DNA from: Deroplatys truncata | Lineage: Eukaryota > Arthropoda > Insecta > Mantodea > Mantidae | NCBI GenBank assembly: GCA_030765065.1 | Contig: CM060986.1 | Location: 72,285,573-72,349,572, forward strand | DNA: 64,000 nucleotides | Direction of reading: 5' to 3' | Shown here: positions 13,365 to 58,863 of the stretch, piece by piece | Position numbering within the stretch: position 1 is the stretch's first letter | Layout of the letters: each line of letters starts with the position of its first letter | Position numbers and translations under genes: made by a program | The notes under the pieces: generated by a model | Told to the model about the DNA's origin: nothing | Databases searched by the model: none | The model's input: only the letters and a program-made list of their open reading frames with translations

Positions 13365-14648
13365 TGAGGGTGGTCTGAAAATTTTCCGACCTAATAAAGA
13401 TGCAAGACATTTTTTCAATTTTTTTTTTTTTTTATTATTTTTCAACATAGTCTCCTTGTAACTCTACACACTTCTCCCAGTGATGCTCCCATCTCTGTAA
13501 CCCATCCAAATAGTACTCAGCATTTTTCTCTGCTAAACAATTGTTCACGAAGGTGATTGCCTCTTCATTTGACGAAAATCTCCGTCCTCCAAGTGCAATT
13601 TTCAGATGAGGGAACAAAAAGAAGTCGCTTGGGGCTAGATCTGGTGAGTAATGCGGATGGTCAAGCAGTTCAAACTGTAATTCGTGGATCTTCGCCATTG
13701 CAACCGCTGAGGTGTGAGACGTTGCGTTGTCTTGGTGAAACAGGATTTCCTTTTTCTGAAAATGTGACCATTTTTCCGCAAATTCTGCCTTTAGCTTGTC
13801 AAGTAATGATGTGTAGTATGCTCCTGTAATGGTTTTTCCTTTTTGAAGATAATCAATTAAAATAACTCCATGACTATCCCAAAAAAACAGTCACCATCAC
13901 TTTCCCAGCCGAAAAAACAGTTTTTGCTTTTTTTGGAGCCGGTTCCCCCTTTGCAGTCCACTGTTTGGACTGTATTTTTGTTTCGGGCGTATAATGGTGT
14001 ATCCAAGTTTCATCTACAGTAATTAATCGGCGCCAAAACTCGGATTTATTGCGTCTAAATTGCGTTGGAAATGTTCATTCGAACACGTTTTTGGTCTAAC
14101 ATGAGCAAACACGGCACCCAACGTGCGGACAGCTTTCTCATGTCTAAATGTTGATTTAATATGTGACAAACACGTTCTTTTGACATGTTCATAACCTTTG
14201 CTATCTCTCTCACTTTAATTCGGCGGTCATTTAGCACCATTTGATGAACTTTCGCGATGTTTTCGTTGGTAGTTGTAGTTTTTGGACATCCCGAATGTTC
14301 ATCGTCTCCCAAGCTTTTATGGCCACGTTTAAATTCAGCTGCCCAAAATTTCACTGTGGTAAATGATGGTGCAGAATCCCCATACACAGAATCCAACTCA
14401 TCTTTGATTTATGTAGGTGTATTGCCTTTCAAAAACAAATATTTAATGACAGCTTGATACTCGATTTTGTCCATTTTCATAAAAACACTCACATCACCTC
14501 AAACGACTGTTACATAACAACTGAGCATCCAAAATGGCTGAAACTTTGGTGAGTAACTGTCAACAGATGAACAATGAAGTTCACTAGCTTTTATTTACGA
14601 GTGCTGCCATCTTCATGTTGAGGTTGGAAACTTTTCACACCACCCTCG
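13365..14648 (-). mobile_element. mariner transposon, full length but inactive
   Basis: A 1284-bp element is flanked by TA dinucleotides (13363-13364 and 14649-14650). Its terminal inverted repeats of about 28 bp begin TGAGGGTGGTCTGAAAA on the left and CGAGGGTGGTGTGAAAA when the right end is reverse-complemented. Length, TA target duplication, TIR and transposase all agree with the mariner group of Tc1/mariner. The coding strand is minus. Confidence 0.93.
13435..14480 (-). pseudogene. mariner transposase, broken reading frame
   Basis: From an ATG at 14480 the frame starts MKMDKIEYQAVIKYL and carries the N-terminal HTH region (FWAAEFKRGHKSLGDDEHSG, REIAKVMNMSKERVCHILN). The three catalytic aspartates are recognisable: VDETWIHHY, HQDNATSHTS and HYSPDLAPSDFF (the D34D signature). 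The C-terminus ends ELQGDYVEK at 13438. Lesions visible: an in-frame TAA at 14409-14411; a shift near 14060, with residues lost just after RMNISNA; and a one-base expansion of a homopolymer at 13881-13887. Few lesions and clear motifs suggest a moderately young copy. The protein would act as a cut-and-paste transposase if intact. Confidence 0.9.
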
Positions 14649-18200: not shown

Positions 18201-19559
18201 ACTGGTTTGTTGCATTGTTGTGCTTTCACTTTAATGAGACAAGCCCATTAAATAAATTTCCTAGCATTTTTCTTCAAACCAAAATGCAGATTATATATGC
18301 ACTGTTTAATATTTTAAAGCTTCGCCTGCAAAAGTAGAAAGTTTCAAGTTGCACTCCTTTTGCATAAGGAGTGCCAAATTACCTAACTTTTTTCAGTGGT
18401 GTTAATGTAATTCAGAAGGCTTCTTGTTATATACATATCTTATATAGACATATATAGACCTTTTGATCCATCAGTTACAAAAAAGGATGACACTCTCAAG
18501 AAAATTCATTCTGTGCACAATTTGTATGACCAGAGGGATGCAGCAGCAGAGTATATGGTACATTACACCCTATGCTTGTCTTGAAACTAATTTGGTATTA
18601 TTACTGTTGTTGTTTGAATATTTAAGGTTTTTATGTAAGCATAATCAGGGCTAACATACATCAGTTAATGATGATAAAATATGACCCTCAGGTACTACAC
18701 TATCCTATATTTGTTTGTATTATAAGAAAATGATCAGCTTAAAAATAGCATTTAAAAAAGGTTTGTGGGAAAGTGTTTTTTATGAAACTGCACAGCTTCA
18801 CTGAAGCAGAGCAGTGAGTTTCTAAGTTTTAAAATGTATTACTCTAGGATAACTTTTAAAATATTCAAAGCTGAGCAAGGAAAGAATGAAATATCATATG
18901 AGAGCTACACAAGCATCACAGTTATTTGTTTTTATTCTGTGACTTCTTGTATGGTATGAAGGTACTAGGTATAAGAGTTGACTCAACTACAGTGAAATTT
19001 GTGTACATATATTTTCATTCTTTTTTTTTCTTTCATTTTTTTAAAGGGCTTAAAGGGCATCTTACCTATGTCTACCAGTCTCTTCATCGTAAACCCTTCT
19101 AACAACACTCTGTCTTTTTTCCCACTCTTCTTTAGTCATTGGGGCCATTGCTTTTGCACGATCTTGCAACAATCTGTCAGTATCATCTTCACTTTCTGTT
19201 TCCTTGGGTTTCAAAGGTTTGGCTTTTTCTGCAGTTACCATTTCTCCACTTACTTTCTTCATTTTCTGCTTATCCTTTTTCAGTTTCTTCTTAGACTTTT
19301 TCTTCTTTTTCTTTTCTTTTCTCTTTTTGGATTTACTGTGCTTTTTTCTTGATTCATGTTTAGTGGGACTACTTCCCCTGCTTCTAGAAGTGGATGATGA
19401 ATCACTTTCGGATTCAGTAGAACTCTCAGAGGACCTTTTTCTTTTTTTCTTCAGCTTTCTGTCTGAACTGTGCTTTCTTTCTGCTCGCTCTTTACTTCTC
19501 TCTCTGGATGAAGATCGAGACGAAGATCTGCTTGCATGTCTTTTCTTTTTGCTTGCCAT
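15267..19559 (-). CDS. ARL6IP4: ARL6IP4 / SR-25 family nuclear speckle protein, two coding exons
   Basis: Coding exons are 19559-19066 and 15399-15267 (minus), giving 208 residues. The start is the ATG at 19559 with a good context (A at -3, G at +4); an in-frame TAA lies about 40 bases upstream. Residues about 3-130 are basic and low in complexity: SR/RS repeats, then polyserine-acidic patches, then long lysine runs ([15 protein letters not shown]), typical of nuclear-speckle proteins. From residue 138 the conserved family domain appears: [26 protein letters not shown], then across the splice [20 protein letters not shown] and [10 protein letters not shown], ending MAAKLNE. The donor is CATAG|gtaag and the acceptor ttgtag|GTTG; joining restores H-R-L-I-K in frame. 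The family is linked to pre-mRNA splicing and binds ARL6 in mammals; the insect function is inferred. The protein is shorter than mammalian forms mainly in the low-complexity part. Confidence 0.95.
15400..19065 (-). other. Intron of ARL6IP4 (3666 bp)
   Basis: Bounded by GT (19065-19064) and AG (15401-15400) on the minus strand. It is AT-rich and, unlike most of the window, free of the HINE-like repeat, SINEs and recognisable transposons. The pyrimidine tract before the acceptor is weak. Short frames at 17846-18043 and 18463-18654 are not supported as genes. Confidence 0.88.
16555..16572. repeat. (GT)n microsatellite
   Basis: Nine GT units inside the ARL6IP4 intron. Confidence 0.9.
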
Positions 19560-20137
19560 TATTTTTTTGAAAAGTTGCAAGTTTCCAAGATATTTTTCTG
19601 TGTAACCTTACTTGATTACAATTATTACTTTCATTACAGCATGTAAGTGTCCTAATACTTTACATGTTACAATAGTAAATTTGCCCTTATATGCCTAAGC
19701 TGCACCCTTGTAGTATAACATAGAAGCATAACTGAAAGAGTTTCTCAGATTTCAAGAATGATTTACCATAAACAGATTCAGCAAAAATCCATTTTATTCA
19801 CCATTCACCTTAAAAGTATAAAAAGGACGAAACATTGCTAAATCATAACCTAACCTAAATAAACTCTGCCTTGTTTTGTTTATCTCGCACAAACTGATAA
19901 AACAAATGCACATCGAATTTCACGTAAAGTCCAACAACCGCCGACAGAGTTCGTTACTGTGACTGCGTGTTCGTCCTCTCTTTGCCCTTGACGTCAGGTG
20001 GAATCAGCTGCTTCAGGAGTCACCTACATATTTTCAGAGGTAAGTGGACATTCCTGAATAAACTTCAGTACACCTAATGTTATTTCTTTGTATATAACTT
20101 CGCTGTGTTAATTACAATTTTGGTTTTGCTGTTGTCT
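19560..20137 (-). promoter_or_regulatory. ARL6IP4 upstream region with a palindromic CRE
   Basis: This stretch is richer in CpG than its surroundings. It contains a perfect palindromic cAMP-response element, TGACGTCA, at 19989-19996, with CAGCTG close by at 20005-20010. Some 230 bp further on, CACGTG occurs at 20228-20233. No clear TATA box or initiator could be assigned. Location and composition suggest the ARL6IP4 promoter, possibly bidirectional because a plus-strand splice donor lies at 20040. Transcription start sites are not readable from sequence alone. Confidence 0.5.
20034..20045 (+). other. Candidate plus-strand splice donor (non-coding first exon?)
   Basis: TCAGAG|GTAAGT matches the consensus donor closely, with the exon ending at 20039. 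It lies 45 bp from the CRE. No coding frame was recognised upstream, so if used it would end a 5' UTR exon of a divergent gene whose coding part lies elsewhere. Confidence 0.3.
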
Positions 20138-22025: not shown

Positions 22026-22525
22026 ATATAGTTACGTAATTGACTGCAAACCGATGTGAGGAAATAAACACGCTGCATTTTATGTTTTAGTATCATTAAA
22101 AGCGGAATATAACACAATGGAATCCCAGGAAGTAACCGAGGATTATTAGCTAGGCCGGGATTCTGATGACATCCTTTAATTGTTGCATCATAGACATTGC
22201 TAACGTGTACTTAAATCTTTATCGTGGGATCCCAGATTATAAAAATCTGATGTGTTACAGTCACATGACTTTCTCTACTCTTGTAAAAACTATTTTTACA
22301 AACGCTTATTCTCCATCTACTTCATGTTAAACGAGATAAACATTTGGAGAGTCTATCTTATTGCTAATTTTCTTGTAGATGTAAGAGGAATATATATTTA
22401 CAAGGGCAATATAGAATAACCGTAGCCTTTAAGCACATACATATCTCTTAATAACTGGTTGCTAGGTGCAGCACCATTCCCTTTCCCACAGCTTAATACT
22501 CTTTGCATATCCAAGACAAAAAAAA

Positions 22526-23216
22526 TCTGATGTGTTACACTCACATGACTTTCTCTACTCTTGTACAATCTGATTTTACAAACGCTTATTCTCCATATGC
22601 TTCATGTTAATCGAGATATCGAGATGTCAATCTTATTGGTAATATTCATGTAGATGCAAGGGGAATGTGGTAGCTTTTAAGCGATAGTCAAATATTTTAA
22701 CGCTGGTTGCTATGTGGAGTATTCCATTCTCTTTGCATGTCCAGGACATAAAAAATGAATAACGAATTTGAGAAAAAGTATAAGTATTGGAAAATTTAAG
22801 GAAATAACAAGCAATATCTGGAAAACGGTTCACTCAACAGAAGAAATGTATATGACATAAGTTGTGTATTTTAACGCGATCTACATTTTTTGTGTAGTAA
22901 CATTTTGTCTATCTCTTATGGTTTACCAGTTATGCAAAAGTCGTTCACAATGAAGAATACTTTTGGAGACATTCCCAGAAAATTCGAGATATACATTTCA
23001 TTTCTCATGACATTATCTTAAACATATGATATTTTCATCAAAATCGTTAGAGCCATTTTTGAGAAAATTAAAATTTTCGAAAAATGTTCCATGTAAAGGG
23101 TAGTCTGGGGTGGGGGGATTTTCTTGAAAACCTTCGTGTCGCATCTCTGGAAGATACTGAACCTAAATACCAAGTTTGGTGCTTATCCGACTGTTCGTTT
23201 TTGAGTTATGCTGTTC

Positions 23217-23247
<31 letters not shown>

Positions 23248-23437
23248 CACAGACAGACAGACACACAGACACACAGATACACAGACACACAGACAGACAC
23301 ACACACGGACATGTTTCCAAAAATGCTTTTTTTGGATTCAGGAAGTCTCAAAACATGTATTTCCGGTGAAATCTTGGTATCGAATTTTTGGGTGGAATGC
23401 AATACTTCCCCTACTTACTATACGTAGTAGAGAAAGT
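22526..23437 (-). mobile_element. HINE-like repeat, full-length nested copy
   Basis: It begins, in its own orientation, at 23437 with ACTTTCTCTACTACGTATAG and ends at 22526 with CACATCAGAT. Its microsatellite carries CAGA units (23216-23312). Its 5' end abuts a second partial copy (23443-24110). Confidence 0.88.
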
Positions 23438-23442
23438 AAAAA

Positions 23443-24110
23443 TGAATAACGAATTTGAGAAAAAGTATAAGTATTGGAAAATTTAAGGGAATAACAAGCA
23501 ATATCTCGAAAACGGTTCACTCAACAAAAGAAATGTATATGACATAAGTTGTGTATTTTAACGCGATCTACATTTTTTGTGTAGTAAAATTTTGTCTATC
23601 TCTTATGGTTTACCTGTTATGCAAAAGTCGTTCACAATGAACAATACTTTTGGAGACATTCCCAGAAAATTCAAGATATACATTTCATTTCTCATGACAT
23701 TATCTTAAACATATGATATTTTAATCAAAATCGTTAGAGCCATTTTTGAGAAAATTAAAATTTTCGAAAAATCTTCCATGTAAAGGGTACTCTGGGGTGG
23801 GGGGATTTTCTTGAAAACCTACGTGTCGCATCTCTGGAATATACTGAGCCTAAATACCAAGTTTGGTGCTTATCCGACTGTTCGTTTTTGAGTTATGCTG
23901 TTCACAGACACACACACACACACACAGACACACACACACACACACAGACACACACACACACACACACAGACACACACACGGACATGTTTCCAAAAATGCT
24001 TTTTTTGGATTCAGGAGGTCTCAAAATATGTATTTCCGGTGAAATCTCGGTATCGAATTTTTGGGTGGAATGCAATACTTCCCCTACTTACTATACGTAG
24101 TAGAGAAAGT
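23443..24110 (-). mobile_element. HINE-like repeat, 5' two-thirds only, in tandem
   Basis: Runs from the 5' end (24110) to the internal T-run (23443), where the next copy starts. Its own 3' third is not found beyond that copy. The pair therefore looks like a head-to-tail tandem rather than a simple insertion. Confidence 0.82.
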
Positions 24111-24613
24111 AAAAATGAATAACGAATTCCCATTTGAGAAAAGTATTGAAAAATGTAAGGGAATAACAAGTAATATCTCGAAAATGGTTCACTCAACAAA
24201 AAAATGTATATGACATAAATTGTGTATTTTAACGCGATCTACATTTTTTGTGTAGTAAAATTTTGTCTATCTCTTATGGTTTACCAGTTATGCAAAAGTC
24301 GTTCACAATAAAGAATACTTTTGGAGACATTCCCAGGAAATTCAAGATATACATTTTATTTGTCATAAAAATATCTTAAACATATGATATTTTAATCAAA
24401 ATCGTTAGAGCCATTTTTGAGAAAATTAAAATTTTCGAAAAATCTTCCATGTAAAGGGTACTCTGGGGTGGGGGGATTTTCTTGAAAACCTCCGTGTCGC
24501 ATCCTTGGAAGATACTGAACCCAAATACCAAGTTTGGTGTTTATCCGACTGTTCGTTTCTGAGTTATGCTGTTCACAGACACACACACGGATATGTTTCC
24601 AAAAATGCTTTTT

Positions 24614-24750
24614 ACTTTCTCTACTACGTATAGTAAGTAGGGGAAGTATTGCATTCCACCCAAAAATTCGATACCGAGATTTCACCGGAAATACATGTTT
24701 TGAGACCTCCTGAATCCAAAAAAAGCATTTTTGGAAACATGTCCGTGTGT

Positions 24751-24791
<41 letters not shown>

Positions 24792-25542
24792 TGTGTGTGT
24801 GTGTCTGTGTGTGTGTGTGTGTCTGTGTGTGTGTGTGTCTGTGTCTGTGAACAGCATAACTCAAAAATGAACAGTCGGATAAACACCAAACTTGGTATTT
24901 AGGTTCAGTATCTTCCAGAGATGCGACACGAAGGTTTTCAAGAAAATCCCCCCACCCCAGACTACCCTTTACATGGAACATTTTTCGAAAATTTTAATTT
25001 TTTCAAAAATGGCTCTAACGATTTTGATGAAAATATCATATGTTTAAGATAATGTCATGAGAAATGAAATGTATATCTCGAATTTTCTGGGAATGTCTCC
25101 AAAAGTATTCTTCATTGTGAACGACTTTTGCATAACTGGTAAACCATAAGAGATAGACAAAATTTTACTACACAAAAAATGTAGATCGCGTTAAAATACA
25201 CAACTTATGTCATATACATTTCTTTTGTTGAGTGAACCGTTTTCGAGATATTGCTTGTTATTTCCTTAAATTTTCCAATACTTATACTTTTTCTCAAATT
25301 CGTTATTCATTTTTTTTATGTCCTGGACATGCAAAGAGAATGGAATGCGCCACATAGCAACCAGCGTTAAAATATTTGACTATCGCTTAAAAGCTACGAT
25401 ATTTCCCTTGCATCTACAAGAAAATTACCAATAAGATTGACTTCTCGATATCTCGATTAACTTGAAGCATATGGAGAATAGGCGTTTGTAAAATTAGATT
25501 GTACAAGAGTAGAGAAAGTCATGTGAGTGTAACACATCAGAT
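24614..25542 (+). mobile_element. HINE-like repeat, full-length nested copy
   Basis: Starts with ACTTTCTCTACTACGTATAG right after the host's TTTTT and ends AACACATCAGAT plus T run. The TG tract is at 24745-24845. Confidence 0.88.
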
Positions 25543-25549
25543 TTTTTTT

Positions 25550-25754
25550 ATGTCCTGACATGCAGAGAGAATGGAATACGCCGCATAGCAACCATCGCTT
25601 AAAAGCTACCATATTCCCCTTGCATCTACAAGAAAATTACCAATAAGATTGACATCTCGATATCTCGATTAACATGAAGCATATGGAGAATAGGCGTTTG
25701 TAAAATTAGATTATACAAGAGTAGAGAAAGTCATGTGAGTGTAACACATCAGAT
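25550..25754 (+). mobile_element. HINE-like repeat, isolated 3' end in tandem
   Basis: Duplicates the last 200 bp of the element, from the internal T-run (ATGTCCTGACATGCAGAG) to CACATCAGATTTTTTT, immediately behind a full copy. The host resumes at 25755 with GGATTCAGGGGGTCTC. Confidence 0.82.
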
Positions 25755-26019
25755 TTTTTTGGATTCAGGGGGTCTCAAAACATGTATTTCCGGTGAAATC
25801 TTGGTATCGAAATTTTGGGTGGAATACAATACTTCCCCCTACTTACTCTACGTAGTAGAGAAAGTAAAAAGGCGTATTAGTTCACTTTTTGGTCATTTTA
25901 GGTTTTTTTTTTCGATTTTACGTTTTGTCATTTTCTTGCTTCTGTAGTTATTTTCTTGCATTTACATTGAGTATATAAAAGTTTTATGTTATTGTCATTT
26001 TACATAAGAATAACTTTTT

Positions 26020-35984: not shown

Positions 35985-36100
35985 TTTTTACTTTCTCTAC
36001 TACGTATAGTAAGTAGGGGAAGTATTGCATTCCACCCAAAAATTCGATACCGAGATTTCACCGGAAATACATGTTTTGAGACCCACTGAATCCAAAAAAA

Positions 36101-36796
36101 TCTGATGTGTTACACTCACATGACTTTCTCTACTCTTGTACAATCTAATTTTACAAACGCTTATTCTCCATATGGTTCATGTTAATCGAGATATCGAAAT
36201 GTCAATCTTATTGGTAATTTTCTTGTAGATGCAAGGGAAATATGGTAGCTTTTAAGCGATAGTCAAATATTTTAACGCTGGTTGCTATGTGGCGCATTCC
36301 ATTCTCTTTGCATGTCCAGGACATAAAAAAAATGAATAACGAATGTGAGAAAAAGTATAAGTATTGGAAAATTTAAGGAAATAACAAGCAATATCTCGAA
36401 AACGGTTCACTCAACAAAAGAAATGTATATGACATAAGTTGTGTATTTTAACGCGATCTACATTTTTTGTGTAGTAAAATTTTGTCTATCTCTTATGGTT
36501 TACCAGTTATACAAAAGTCGTTCACAATGAAGAATACTTTTGGAGACATTTCCAGAAAATTCGAGATATACATTTCATTTCTCATGACATTATCTTAAAC
36601 ATATGATATTTTCATCAAAATCGTTAGAGCCATTTTTGAGAAAATTAAAATTTTCGAAAAATCTTCCATGTAAAGGGTAGTCTGGGGTGGGGGGATTTTC
36701 TTGAAAACCTTCGTGTCGCATCTCTGGAAGATACTGAACCTAAATACCAAGTTTGGTGTTTATCCGACTGTTCGTTTTTGAGTTATGCTGTTCACA

Positions 36797-36837
<41 letters not shown>

Positions 36838-36994
36838 ACATACACACACACAGACACACACACGGACATGTTTCCAAAAATGCTTTTTTTGGATTCAGGA
36901 GGTCTCAAAATATGTATTTCCGGTGAAATCTCGGTATCGAATTTTTGGGTGGAATGCAATACTTCCCCTACTTACTATACGTAGTAGAGAAAGT
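36101..36994 (-). mobile_element. HINE-like repeat, nested full-length copy
   Basis: In its own orientation it starts at 36994 (ACTTTCTCTACTACG) and ends at 36101 (CACATCAGA). The TG tract is at 36797-36865 as CA on plus. Confidence 0.88.
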
Positions 36995-37016
36995 AAAAAG
37001 CATTTTTGGAAACATG

Positions 37017-37018
<2 letters not shown>

Positions 37019-37068
<50 letters not shown>

Positions 37069-37070
37069 TG
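37019..37070. repeat. (GT)n microsatellite of the HINE-like host
   Basis: About 23 GT units at the fixed microsatellite position of the element. Tract length differs in every copy in the window. Confidence 0.9.
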
Positions 37071-37535
37071 TGAACAGCATAACTCAAAAACGAACAGTCG
37101 GATAAACACCAAACTTGGTATTTAGGTTCAGTATCTTCCAGAGATGCGACACGAAGGTTTTCAAGAAAATCCCCCCACCCCAGACTACCCTTTACATGGA
37201 AGATTTTTCGAAAATTTAAATTTTCTCAAAAATGGCTAACGATTTTGATGAAAATATCATATGTTTAAGATAATGTCATGAGAAATGAAATGTATATCTC
37301 GAATTTTCTGGGAATGTCTCCAAAAGTATTCTTCATTGTGAACGACTTTTGCATAACTGGTAAACCATAAGAGATAGACAAAATTTTACTACACAAAAAA
37401 TGTAGATCGCGTTAAAATACACAACTTATGTCATATACATTTCTTTTGTTGAGTGAACCGTTTTCGAGATATTGCTTGTTATTTCCTTAAATTTTCCAAT
37501 ACTTATACTTTTTCTCAAATGCGTTATTCATTTTT

Positions 37536-38384
37536 ACTTTCTCTACTACGTATAGTAAGTAGGGGAAGTATTGCATTCCACCCAAAAATTCGATACCGAG
37601 ATTTCACCGGAAATACATGTTTTGAGAATCACTGAATCCAAAAAAAGCATTTTTGGAAACATGTCCGTGTGTGTGTCTGTCTGTGTGTCTGTGAACAGCA
37701 TAACTCAAAAACGAACAGTCGGATAAACACCAAACTTGGTATTTAGATTCAGTATCTTCCAGAGATGCGACACGAAGGTTTTCAAGAAAATCCCCCCACC
37801 CCAAACTACCCTTTACATGGAACATTTTTCGAAAATTTTAATTTTCTCAAAAACGGCTCTAACGATTTTGATTAAAATATCATATGTTTAAGATATTGTC
37901 ATGACAAATAAAATGTATATCTCGAATTTTCTGGGAATGTCTCCAAAAATATTCTTCATTGTGAACGACTTTTGCATAACTGGTAAACCATAAGAGATAG
38001 ACAAAATTTTACTACACAAAAAATGTAGATCGCGTTAAAATACACAACTTATGTCATATACGTTTCTTTTGTTGAGTGAACCGTTTTCGAGATATTGCTT
38101 GTTATTTCCTTAAATTTTCCAATACTTATACTTTTTCTCAAATTCGTTATTCATTTTTTTATGTCCTGAACATGCAAAGAGAATGGAATTCGCCACATAT
38201 AACCAGCGTTAAAATATTTGACTATCGCTTAAAAGCTACCATATTCCCCTTGCATCTACAAGAAAATTACCAATAAGATTGACATCTTGATATCTCGATT
38301 AACATGAAGCATATGGAGAATAGGCGTTTGTAAAATTAGATTGTACAAGAGTAGAGAAAGTTATGTGAGTGTAACACATCAGAT
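37536..38384 (+). mobile_element. HINE-like repeat, nested full-length copy
   Basis: ACTTTCTCTACTACGTATAG to CACATCAGAT, 849 bp, with a short TG tract (37665-37692). Confidence 0.88.
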
Positions 38385-38754
38385 TTTTTTTTTATGTCCT
38401 GGACATGCAAAGAAAATGGAATGCGCCACATAGCAACCAGCGTTAAAATATTTGACTGTCGCTTAAAAGCTACCATATTTCCCTTGCATCTACAAGAAAA
38501 TTACCAATAAGATTGACATCCCGATATCTCGATTAACATGAAGCATAGGAGAATAGGCGTTTGTAAAATTAGATTGCACAAGAGTAGAGAAAGTCATGTG
38601 AGTGTAACACATCAGATTTTTTGCAATGTGATGCAGTTTCATAGGCTGAGATTCTATGGTCAGCACATTGTGCTATGTCTACAGCGGCGCCTTCAGTGGA
38701 TTTATTTCCGCAAATGTTCCCAGGCAGGCTCATATCCCTAGGACGTGTTGTTGA

Positions 38755-40020
38755 GAAGTGTTAAGGAAAGTCCTGTTTGCTTTTTCCATTAATGAAAGCC
38801 TCAACGATATTGCTCATAGAGAGCAAATGATTGTTGTGGTAAATTATTGGGATGATAATTCAGATTTAATAAGTACTAGGTACTTGATATATTTATTCCT
38901 AGAAAAATCAACATCCTGGAATATAATGAACCACTATCTGAAAACAACCTTGGATTTGAAAAGCTTACTCAGGTGTCTACAGATAGCCCTAATGTAAACC
39001 AAAAACTCTTGTCCGATCTAAGAAGTGTCGTCCTCCGTGGTGTAGTGGTTACCATGCTAGCCTCTAGTTCCCGAGGTGGTGGGTTCAAACCCGGCCGAGG
39101 ACGATCCTAAAAATCCTTAGCATGGCTTCCTTCGGAAGGGAAGTAAAGCCGGTGGTCCCGTAACGTAGATTTACGGCACGTAAAATAACCTCAAGCCTGA
39201 TAGAGGCCGCTAAGCCAAATTACCGGTCTTTCACGCCCAGTATAGAACGGAACGCTAAGGACCACAGCAGTTAAAGAACGTCCCTAAATGAAACTAAATT
39301 TCGATCACATGAAAAATTGTTTGATTTCTGAAAAACTGATAGTTGGTGCTGGGACATGCTCCCTTCATCAGTCTTTGTATGGTATTTTTAAGTAGTCCCC
39401 AAGAGTTGCATTCATTGCTGCAACTGCTACTTCAACATTTCCCAAAAGTTCTTTGCCATAAGGTGGACAGAGAACTCTGTTACTGAGGAAAGCCTTGAAA
39501 TGTTTCCTCACATGAAAAAGTTTCTCTTCCATTGATTCCCACTACTTTTCCATAGTCAAAAATGCAATCGATGATTCTACGCTTCCAACTAAGCTTCACT
39601 TTTTGACGATTTATAAAGATTTGGAAACTTTCCAAACCAATAGGCCTCTTCTTCCGTTTTTTAATTTTGAAATTGTTACCAAATAAAAATATTACAGGAA
39701 ATGTGAGAGTATAATGGACACACTCATCTTTTAGGAAGTTTGCTGAAATTAATTTTCATTCCAAAGATGTATTTAGAAAGACAGAGGAGATTGATACAGG
39801 TTTTGATGCAGGCTGCGCTTTGAAGCAGCTGAAAGCAGTAGATGCTCTGCTCATAAAGGAAAATTGCAGGAGGTTCCTTGTTGACATTGTCACGAAATTT
39901 CTTCAGAAAAGTCCTCTTAAGAAAAATTTGGTGTTCATTGCAGCGTGCATTTCGTTGCAAGTTCAACAACGAGCCCCTCGTCATAAAAAATTTACAATTG
40001 ATACAATAAACTCGTAGATG
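38755..40020 (+). pseudogene. hAT-type transposase relic, split by a SINE
   Basis: Plus-strand translation with frameshifts gives a collinear series typical of hAT transposase-derived proteins. The series is: FAFSINESLNDIAHREQMIV (the 'DEStD..hreQl' block, with the first catalytic D replaced by N); KLTQVSTDSPNVNQKLLSDL (the 'DGPNVN' block); then, after the SINE at 39028-39297, LIVGAGTCSLHQSLYGIFK ('iGtCgLH..h'). Next come FAIRWTENSVTEESLEMFP (the 'RW.EN' block), LYKDLETFQTNRPLLPFF, and CALKQLKAVDALLIKENCRR with FLVDIVTKFLQKSPLKK. Stops separate the blocks, so it is dead. The N-terminal BED finger was not seen. Confidence 0.78.
39028..39297 (+). mobile_element. SINE family A, full length with clear tRNA head
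   Basis: The head has a closed acceptor-like stem (CGTCCTC at the start, GAGGACG about 65 bases on), A box TGGTGTAGTGGTTA and B box GGGTTCAAACCC. The body carries AAATCCTTAGCATGGCTTCC and GGTCTTTCACGCCC, and the end is CCTAAATGAAAC. It interrupts the hAT relic. It is the best copy for defining the family; the parent tRNA was not determined. Confidence 0.9.
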
Positions 40021-52376: not shown

Positions 52377-52466
52377 ACTTTCTCTACCGCTTACATGTAA
52401 TATACTAAATGTTACGTTTTATCCAAATATTCGAAATCGGGATTTCACGAACATTCGCTTTTTTAG

Positions 52467-53273
52467 AAAGGTAGAATCAGATGACTGAAAAATTCAATGC
52501 CATAGCCGGGATTTGAACCACGGATCTCCCGGTCACCGTCCGGTTGCTCTAACCACTGAGCTACCATGGCAACATGCCGACACGACATTAAATTCTCCAG
52601 CTGATTCGCATTTTTCCCGGTAAACCACAAGGAGATCTCAAATTGTATTGAGATGCCATACCCCAATGGCGACTTACATTTATGTAAGTACTTTAAGTTC
52701 CGGGCTTTATAGTTGCAACCACTATTAGGTCAATTAATGCAATTAATTGTTCTTTCACACAAGCCGTGTGTTGGACAGGGTTGGAAAGGTAGAATCAGAT
52801 GACTGAAAAATTCAATGCCATAGCCGGGATTTGAACCACGGTGACGGGGAGATCCGTGGTTCAAATCCCGGCTATGGCATTGAATTTTTCAGTCATCTGA
52901 TTCTACCTTTCCAACCCTGTCCAACACACGGCTTGTGTGAAAGAACAATTAATTGCATTAATTGACCTAATAGTGGTTGCAACTATAAAGCCCGGAACTT
53001 AAAGTACTTACATAAATGTAAGTCGCCATTGGGGTATGGCATCTCAATACAATTTGAGATCTCCTTGTGGTTTACCGGGAAAAATGCGAATCAGCTGGAG
53101 AATTTAATGTCGTGTCGGCATGTTGCCATGGTAGCTCAGTGGTTAGAGCAACCGGACGGTGACCGGGAGATCCGTGGTTCAAATCCCGGCTATGGCATTG
53201 AATTTTTCAGTCATCTGATTCTACCTTTCCAACCCTGTCCAACACACGGCTTGTGTGAAAGAACAATTAATTG
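52467..53273. mobile_element. 807-bp palindromic tRNA-headed SINE dimer with 15-bp target duplication
   Basis: The insertion is flanked by CATTCGCTTTTTTAG at 52452-52466 and 53274-53288. Two arms of 375 bp (52467-52841 and 52854-53228) are inverted copies, seen without indels where checked, around a 12-bp centre. Each arm contains a tRNA-like head (minus 52498-52570; plus 53125-53197) and is itself slightly more than one 318-bp head-to-tail unit. A further 45 bp (53229-53273) is present only on the right. The long target duplication points to LINE-type integration. Confidence 0.88.
53125..53197 (+). other. tRNA-like SINE head (not a functional tRNA)
   Basis: 73 bases with cloverleaf spacing: a 7-bp acceptor stem (GCCATGG with CTATGGC, one G-T pair), D stem GCTC/GAGC, and T loop TTCAAAT. 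The anticodon loop ACGGTGA lacks the invariant T before the anticodon, and the T stem has two mismatches. It is repeated on minus at 52498-52570. I therefore call it a tRNA-derived SINE promoter region. Confidence 0.75.
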
Positions 53274-58728: not shown

Positions 58729-58863
58729 ACTTTCTCTACTACGTATAGTAAGTAGGGGAAGTATTGCATTCCACCCAAAAATTCGATACCGAGATTTCAC
58801 CAGAAATACATGTTTTGAGACCTCCTGAATCCAAAAAAAGCATTTTTGGAAACATGTCCGTGT

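Follow-up and report, generated by a model that had tools for sequence, protein, structure and literature searches.

The nested locus

The locus lies in a 64-kb window (C12:72285573-72349572, the whole stretch of DNA analysed) of the 4.29-Gb, 818-contig genome of Deroplatys truncata, where 17,399 of the 64,000 bases belong to one repeated element, diverged relatives included. At 35985-38622 a host copy of this element is cut twice, at a run of seven A by a full copy inverted relative to it and at a T-run by a full copy parallel to it. The features of this nest, referred to below as nest 2, are as follows.

35985..35989, plus strand: TTTTT before the 5' end of the host
35990..36100, plus strand: host 5' piece (element 1-111, subtype A), ending in the A7 target
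35990..36023, plus strand: 5' palindromic subterminal repeat, ACTTTCTCTACT...AGTAGGGGAAGT
36101..36994, minus strand: A-run guest, a full copy, inverted relative to the host
36995..36999, minus strand: TTTTT on the guest strand, 5' of the A-run guest
37000..37535, plus strand: host middle with a GT microsatellite, ending in the T-run (CATTTTT)
37536..38383, plus strand: T-run guest, a full copy, parallel to the host
38384..38616, plus strand: host 3' tail, starting in a T10 run and ending in CAGA
38583..38594, plus strand: 3' subterminal inverted repeat, AGTAGAGAAAGT, then a short palindrome, ATGTG..CACAT
38617..38622, plus strand: T6 past the 3' end of the host

The original prediction had the host on the plus strand, as a different subtype from the host of a similar nest at 22.2-25.9 kb (nest 1), and both points stood, the hosts being of subtype A in nest 2 and subtype B in nest 1. 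The first break, put about 105 bases in, was re-measured and the A7 found at 36094-36100, which is host position 105-111. The second break is at the T-run, as had been stated, but it falls ~645 bases into the nest 2 host, microsatellite included, and not at about 620.

Nest 1 has its subtype B host on the minus strand, and the orientations of its guests relative to the host are those of nest 2. Its features, from the 5' end of the host to the 3' end, are as follows.

25754..25865, minus strand: host 5' piece, subtype B
25542..25753, plus strand: extra tail (element ~620-857) past the A-run guest, giving a composite with two 3' ends
24614..25541, plus strand: A-run guest, a full copy, inverted relative to the host
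24111..24608, minus strand: host middle, subtype B
23438..24110, minus strand: T-run head (element 1-624), without a tail of its own
22526..23437, minus strand: full copy at the T-run of the preceding head
22246..22525, minus strand: host tail, subtype B

That the A-run guest is inverted and the T-run guest parallel in both nests was therefore right as to orientation, but the implied simple guests were not found in nest 1, where the "guests" are composites. At the T-run of that nest a head and a full copy are followed by a single tail, which is that of the subtype B host.

Other features of the window include a perfect 379-bp inverted repeat with a 12-nt spacer (52463-53232), each arm of which has an Rfam tRNA match of 53.6 bits, and a broken mariner-type transposase on the minus strand (13435-14408; PF01359, E 8.1e-12 on 13435-13890) with a weak Mos1-type HTH at 14055-14408, also on the minus strand (E 0.0024, below its cut-off). 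An open frame at 19062-19607 on the minus strand matches SR-25, a splicing-associated nuclear protein (PF10500, E 2.1e-21), and is perhaps an exon or a processed copy. The stretch 39028-39260 is SINE-like by eye, with a tRNA-like head and other sequence, and received no Rfam call at threshold.

Anatomy of the element

Copies of the element are ~0.82-0.93 kb long (~0.87 kb for the nest 2 host), the length varying with a GT/GTCT microsatellite of variable size at position ~135 of the aligned window copies. The element is non-coding; the longest ORF in its copies is at most 170 aa, and the ORFs listed there cross the GT repeat. No Rep or helicase was found by Pfam in 10 of the 26 listed window ORFs, Rfam at its gathering threshold gave no match within either nest, and exact motif scans returned 0 matches in viral contigs and 0 in prokaryote genome contigs.

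The termini are ACTTTC and CAGA and the target is a T-tract. The 5' end, ACTTTCTCTACTACGTATAGTAAGTAGGGGAAGT, is self-folding, its repeat pairing back on AGTAGGGGAAGT, with a hairpin z of -3.58 against 200 shuffles, and its first bases, ACTTTCTCTACT, recur as an inverted copy (AGTAGAGAAAGT) 22 nt from the 3' end CAGA. The 3' palindrome, ATGTG-N7-CACAT, has a 5-bp stem and lies 4 nt from the end; it is short and weak, its stability being that of shuffled sequence (z -0.21). Two main subtypes, A and B, are ~10% apart. In the majority sequence of subtype A (7 copies) the longest homopolymers are an A7 at 105 and a T8 at 651, the next being an A6, and the T8 is at ~620 in the shorter copy used as query. 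The majority sequence of subtype B (3 copies) has as its longest runs a T10 at 530, a T8 at 622 and an A7 at 105.

Polarity of insertion

Searches of the whole genome for an inverted guest with T5 at the A-run gave 750 + 771 = 1,521 exact junctions, with 0 for the control; part of them are in arrays, such as the four at C1:158.33-158.34 Mb. The pattern used for the reverse polarity was looser, with up to 10 bases allowed between CCAAA and ACTTTC, and yielded 53 matches genome-wide, in none of which (0/53) does the 5' end of the guest abut the A-run. Read by eye, 51 of these 53 loose parallel matches have T directly before ACTTTC and so look like insertions in other T stretches.

The same bias is seen at the T-run. 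Among 335,773 fetched bases from 76 sources the T-run junctions were parallel in 23 matches (21 distinct) and inverted in 0, while A-run junctions in the same bases were inverted in 11 matches (8 distinct) and parallel in 0; several of these matches share one array. Fuzzy junction counts at the 530 and 515 sites are mixed with look-alike flanks and were set aside, and the lone contrary match there (L064) is an A-run, i.e. of the usual polarity. Tabulation of guest orientation against the T-strand, genome-wide for the A-run and in the fetched bases for the T-run, thus gives a T bias in both, and the strand-specific recognition of T-tracts proposed from the nest is supported by the exact inverted A-run junctions set against the lack of A-abutting parallel ones.

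It had also been claimed that guests always read TTTTT-ACTTTC, which is nearly, though not strictly, the case. TTTTT precedes 84 of 100 distinct 5' ends and at least four of the last five bases are T for 96, whereas AAAAA precedes 0/100; by chance alone TTTTT would precede a position with a probability of 0.0075 (both window strands). These 5' ends come from 74 sources (L002-L074 and the window, 322,873 bases), most of the loci having been picked by similarity or by a 3'-end motif.

T-runs at the two ends and the identity of the element

Counts of T differ between the two sides of the element. At 74 5' ends the left run has 5 T in 48, 6 in 12 and fewer than 5 in 11, and at 78 3' ends the right run has 5-9 T in 62, fewer than 5 in 13 and at least 10 in 3. 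The right run looks like the target while the left is nearly fixed, and this difference between a nearly fixed and a spread run suggests that T5 is supplied by the element, at its 5' end, and that insertion takes place at the 5' edge of a T-tract. In both nests the guest in the A7 run is flanked by T5 and T7, which is five beyond the uninterrupted A7 of other copies. Genome-wide, T5 follows 111,120 exact 3' ends (control 0) and a non-T base follows 10,216, ends with one to four T falling in neither class. When non-T 3' ends were examined in 10 of 30 fetched loci, in 8 of the 10 a single altered base was followed by four or more T. In a small random sample, made up of the first 5 kb at 10 of the 80 positions drawn, 4,673 of 50,000 bases in ten stretches were element, relatives included.

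Runs of T on both sides might also be read as the 5-bp target duplication, almost always TTTTT, of a cut-and-paste MITE. Nearly every target is T, so a T5 duplication and a T5 of the element's own give like sequence, and such a duplication would agree both with T5 or more at 63/74 left and 65/78 right ends and with the five extra T at the A7 site. A near-fixed left T5 with a variable right run is, however, unexpected for duplication anywhere in a T-run, and in the single clear case of an altered left run (TTATT, at L023) the right side is unmatched (TTTTCG). Head-to-tail junctions in arrays are exactly T5, which favours T owned by the element over target duplication. The element also has no terminal inverted repeats, its inverted copy being 22 nt inside the 3' end, and on this ground and that of the left/right asymmetry of T a MITE with T5 duplication was rejected as improbable.

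A SINE-like retroposon lying on the other strand, with T5 the complement of a poly-A tail and insertion primed at T-runs by a non-LTR endonuclease, would account for the strand preference at T-runs and for an A-run at one terminus. Its run is nevertheless nearly constant at five, not a variable tail, and no duplication beyond T was seen by eye in the 47 complete copies listed. The paired subterminal repeats, the precise head-to-tail arrays and the lack of an Rfam match in the nests also argue against it, and the retroposon was rejected as more improbable still than the MITE.

The reading preferred here is that host and guests alike are copies of a single non-coding rolling-circle element of the HINE type, that is, a non-autonomous Helentron. 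Together with the mechanism given below this is put at a probability of about 0.88. The assignment is made because the palindromic 5' repeat, its inverted 3' copy, the GT/GTCT microsatellite and insertion in T-tracts match a published plan. Copies mostly take the form T5-[ACTTTC...CAGA]-T5 to T9 and are of one polarity wherever counted. An enzyme from an unseen Helentron would nick at the 5' end of the element, one strand would be peeled off until the 3' end (hairpin and CAGA) on that same strand is reached, and the product would then be attached to another T-tract on its T-strand. The T5 on the 5' side would be carried by the element and not made as a target duplication. Composite units would arise when copying of a nest starts at the outer 5' end and stops at the first 3' end on that strand, or when one 3' end is skipped.

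Two independent nests at the same sites

The hosts of the two nests differ at 86 of 816 aligned positions and the A-run guests at 13 of 825. A blastn comparison of the outer 400-bp flanks of nest 1 with those of nest 2 gave no match at E<=10. Phylogenetic analysis was based on a tree of 69 rows, in which the bootstrap is not settled and many forks are weak. The nest 1 host falls in the B clade (8 rows, 100/100) and that of nest 2 in A; the T-run guest of nest 2 clusters with five further genomic copies in a young subclade (100/99), and the full copy at the nest 1 T-run groups with the window copy at 58729 and a copy from L025 (98/93). Because the host subtypes differ, the guests are in different clades and the outer flanks share nothing, nests 1 and 2 are, to judge from their sequences, separate events, which bears out the original prediction of independent hits in two hosts.

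Identity of sites and orientations is what would be seen if both nests were duplicates of one ancestral composite. Such a duplication was ruled out by the flanks, subtypes and clades just described; moreover, nest 1 holds composites and nest 2 none, and the same type of nest is present at other sampled loci, so that a single ancestral nest is hardly credible. The same two sites recur because the A-run and the T-run are long homopolymers of the element, the A7 and T8 being the two longest of subtype A, and look-alike nests are a predictable outcome of target choice.

Repeated hits at these sites were found in the sampled loci, at the T-run in L004, L005, L007, L010, L011, L012, L014, L019, L026 and L028, at the A-run in L003, L027 and L029 and at the 530 run in L008 and L030. 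The proportions of nest types in these loci are biased, since L001-L030 were selected for their resemblance to the T-run guest and L043-L072 for having a base other than T directly past the 3' end.

Composites and tandem arrays

Heads (5' end to T-run) and tails (T-run to 3' end) are unequal in number at several loci, which simple nesting would not yield. Local duplication of tails is not favoured as the source of the composites, since the distance between the extra tail and that of the full copy next to it (0.04 in nest 1; 0.06-0.12 in L007, L051, L055, L056 and L071) is about the same as between random pairs of family tails (mean 0.075 for 83 tails). Two loci on C1, near 21.07 and 21.66 Mb (L055 and L056), have identical flanks and two and three tails, respectively, and represent a duplicated locus in which the number of tails is changing; their extra tails are alike (0.027-0.064). 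With flanks in common and tail numbers that differ, this pair indicates that exchange changes copy number after insertion.

A whole nest is repeated in tandem at C1:158334001-158343900 (L075), where the unit of 2.43 kb has the architecture of nest 2 and is 94.2% identical to window 35990-38383 over the unit length. Three units of 2,418-2,430 bp are 2-8 substitutions apart (of about 2,420), and a fourth looks deleted. The full unit consists of the host 5' piece, the inverted A-run guest, the host middle, the parallel T-run guest and CAGA-TTTTT, followed by the start of the next host, so that the junction reads CAGA-TTTTT-ACTTTC with exactly T5. Within the stretch fetched, which covers one end of the array, the host tail is present only after the last unit. 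The unit thus begins at the outer 5' end and stops at the first 3' end on that strand, the end of the opposite-strand guest being ignored, and copying between these two points would give such an array. The same junction could also result if a composite inserted next to its donor, at the T5 belonging to the donor itself.

Unequal crossing-over or slippage, in place of rolling-circle copying, might also have produced the composites and arrays. The differing tail numbers of L055 and L056 on common flanks, with extra tails that are alike, agree with exchange, as does the last L075 unit, which looks like a deletion product between direct repeats. Yet the extra tail is about as far from its neighbour's tail as random family members are, and by our own reckoning exchange between direct repeats within a nest should lead to a period of ~1.55 kb without a CAGA-T5-ACTTTC junction, against the 2.43 kb and that very junction in L075. 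Exchange as the source of these structures is regarded as unlikely, although it retains appreciable weight. As to the rolling-circle reading, the chances seem roughly even that the longest homopolymers of the element serve as its insertion sites, which would make nesting inherent to it, and that whole nests are then copied as larger units, each running from the outer 5' end up to the first 3' end met on that strand.

Two other kinds of array were observed. At C16:6118801-6121800 (L076) ~21 tandem heads (element 1-119), 71-83% identical to the family, are followed by a longer piece of the element, and GCATTTTT lies directly 5' of the next ACTTTC at 17 exact places, making this a satellite built of 5' ends. 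An array near the start of contig 1 (C1:20518-122776; L031 and L032) has a period of ~3,409 bp, with one element copy in each of two fetched units.

Relation to known elements

HINE or DINE-1 elements have been described as non-autonomous Helentrons with high copy number and a tendency to cluster, and clustering through missed termination has been discussed (Thomas et al. 2014, PMC4067079). According to the portions of that account consulted, HINEs have a 3' palindrome, subterminal repeats (12-15 bp) that in the mite families are themselves palindromic, in some cases microsatellites, and a T-rich target with T on both sides that is counted as the element's (PMC4067079). The present family is similar in being non-coding and abundant and in its subterminal inverted repeats, 3' palindrome, microsatellite, T-rich target and clustering, a likeness judged by the published description and not by a consensus sequence. 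It differs from the mite HINEs in the spacing of its 3' end, the repeat lying ~38-60 nt and the palindrome ~8-35 nt from the end in seven mite families (which do not amount to a definition) as against 22 and 4 nt here, if the end is CAGA (PMC4067079).

Cg_HINE of Crassostrea gigas, in the passages seen, likewise has an 11-12-bp subterminal repeat with an adjacent complementary copy, a GTCY-type microsatellite and T-rich targets; it is described as making no target duplication, and its arrays are central and satellite-like, whereas those found here are of heads, tails or a whole nest (PMC7492417). In Fusarium oxysporum the FoHeli elements of the Helitron2 group insert into themselves to form composites in which a single 3' end is combined with several 5' ends, and the explanation offered is a start at the outer 5' end and a stop at the first 3' end; outward PCR for circles was performed on FoHeli, and a three-copy tandem is mentioned in another fungus (PMC5148889). 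Unlike the present family, FoHeli inserts between TNAT and A (two subgroups) with an invariant number of T, and one nested example is given; the parts of the account consulted contain no tandem repeat of a nest (PMC5148889). Helraiser and the canonical Helitrons share a bypassable 3' hairpin terminator, plus-strand transposition, circles and tandem arrays, but have 5' TC, 3' CTAG and an AT target in place of ACTTTC, CAGA and a T-tract (PMC4778049, PMC5876387, as far as these sources were seen). A canonical Helitron, with 5' TC, 3' CTRR and insertion between A and T, was rejected as an identity for the element on its termini and its T-tract target.

T-rich targeting by Helentron-type elements has thus already been published, and the family here is a new and very abundant member. 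The freshest result is the L075 array of a nest-2-type unit, since it is unusual to see a whole nest repeated in tandem so clearly; no description of a tandem array of a two-strand nest was found at the level of titles and abstract openings of the top-ranked papers, and absence from print is not claimed.

To our knowledge Helentron transposition, unlike that of Helraiser, has not been rebuilt in the laboratory. A family with more than 111,000 exact 3' ends permits counts of polarity, of the length of target runs, of bypassed terminators and of self-insertion. Nests with one guest per strand, together with the tandem nest-type unit, bear directly on the choice of the copied strand and on the point at which copying ends. 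If the reading proposed here is true, the array at C1:158.33-158.34 Mb would be a natural test of strand-specific termination and would mark a route from a transposon nest to satellite DNA.
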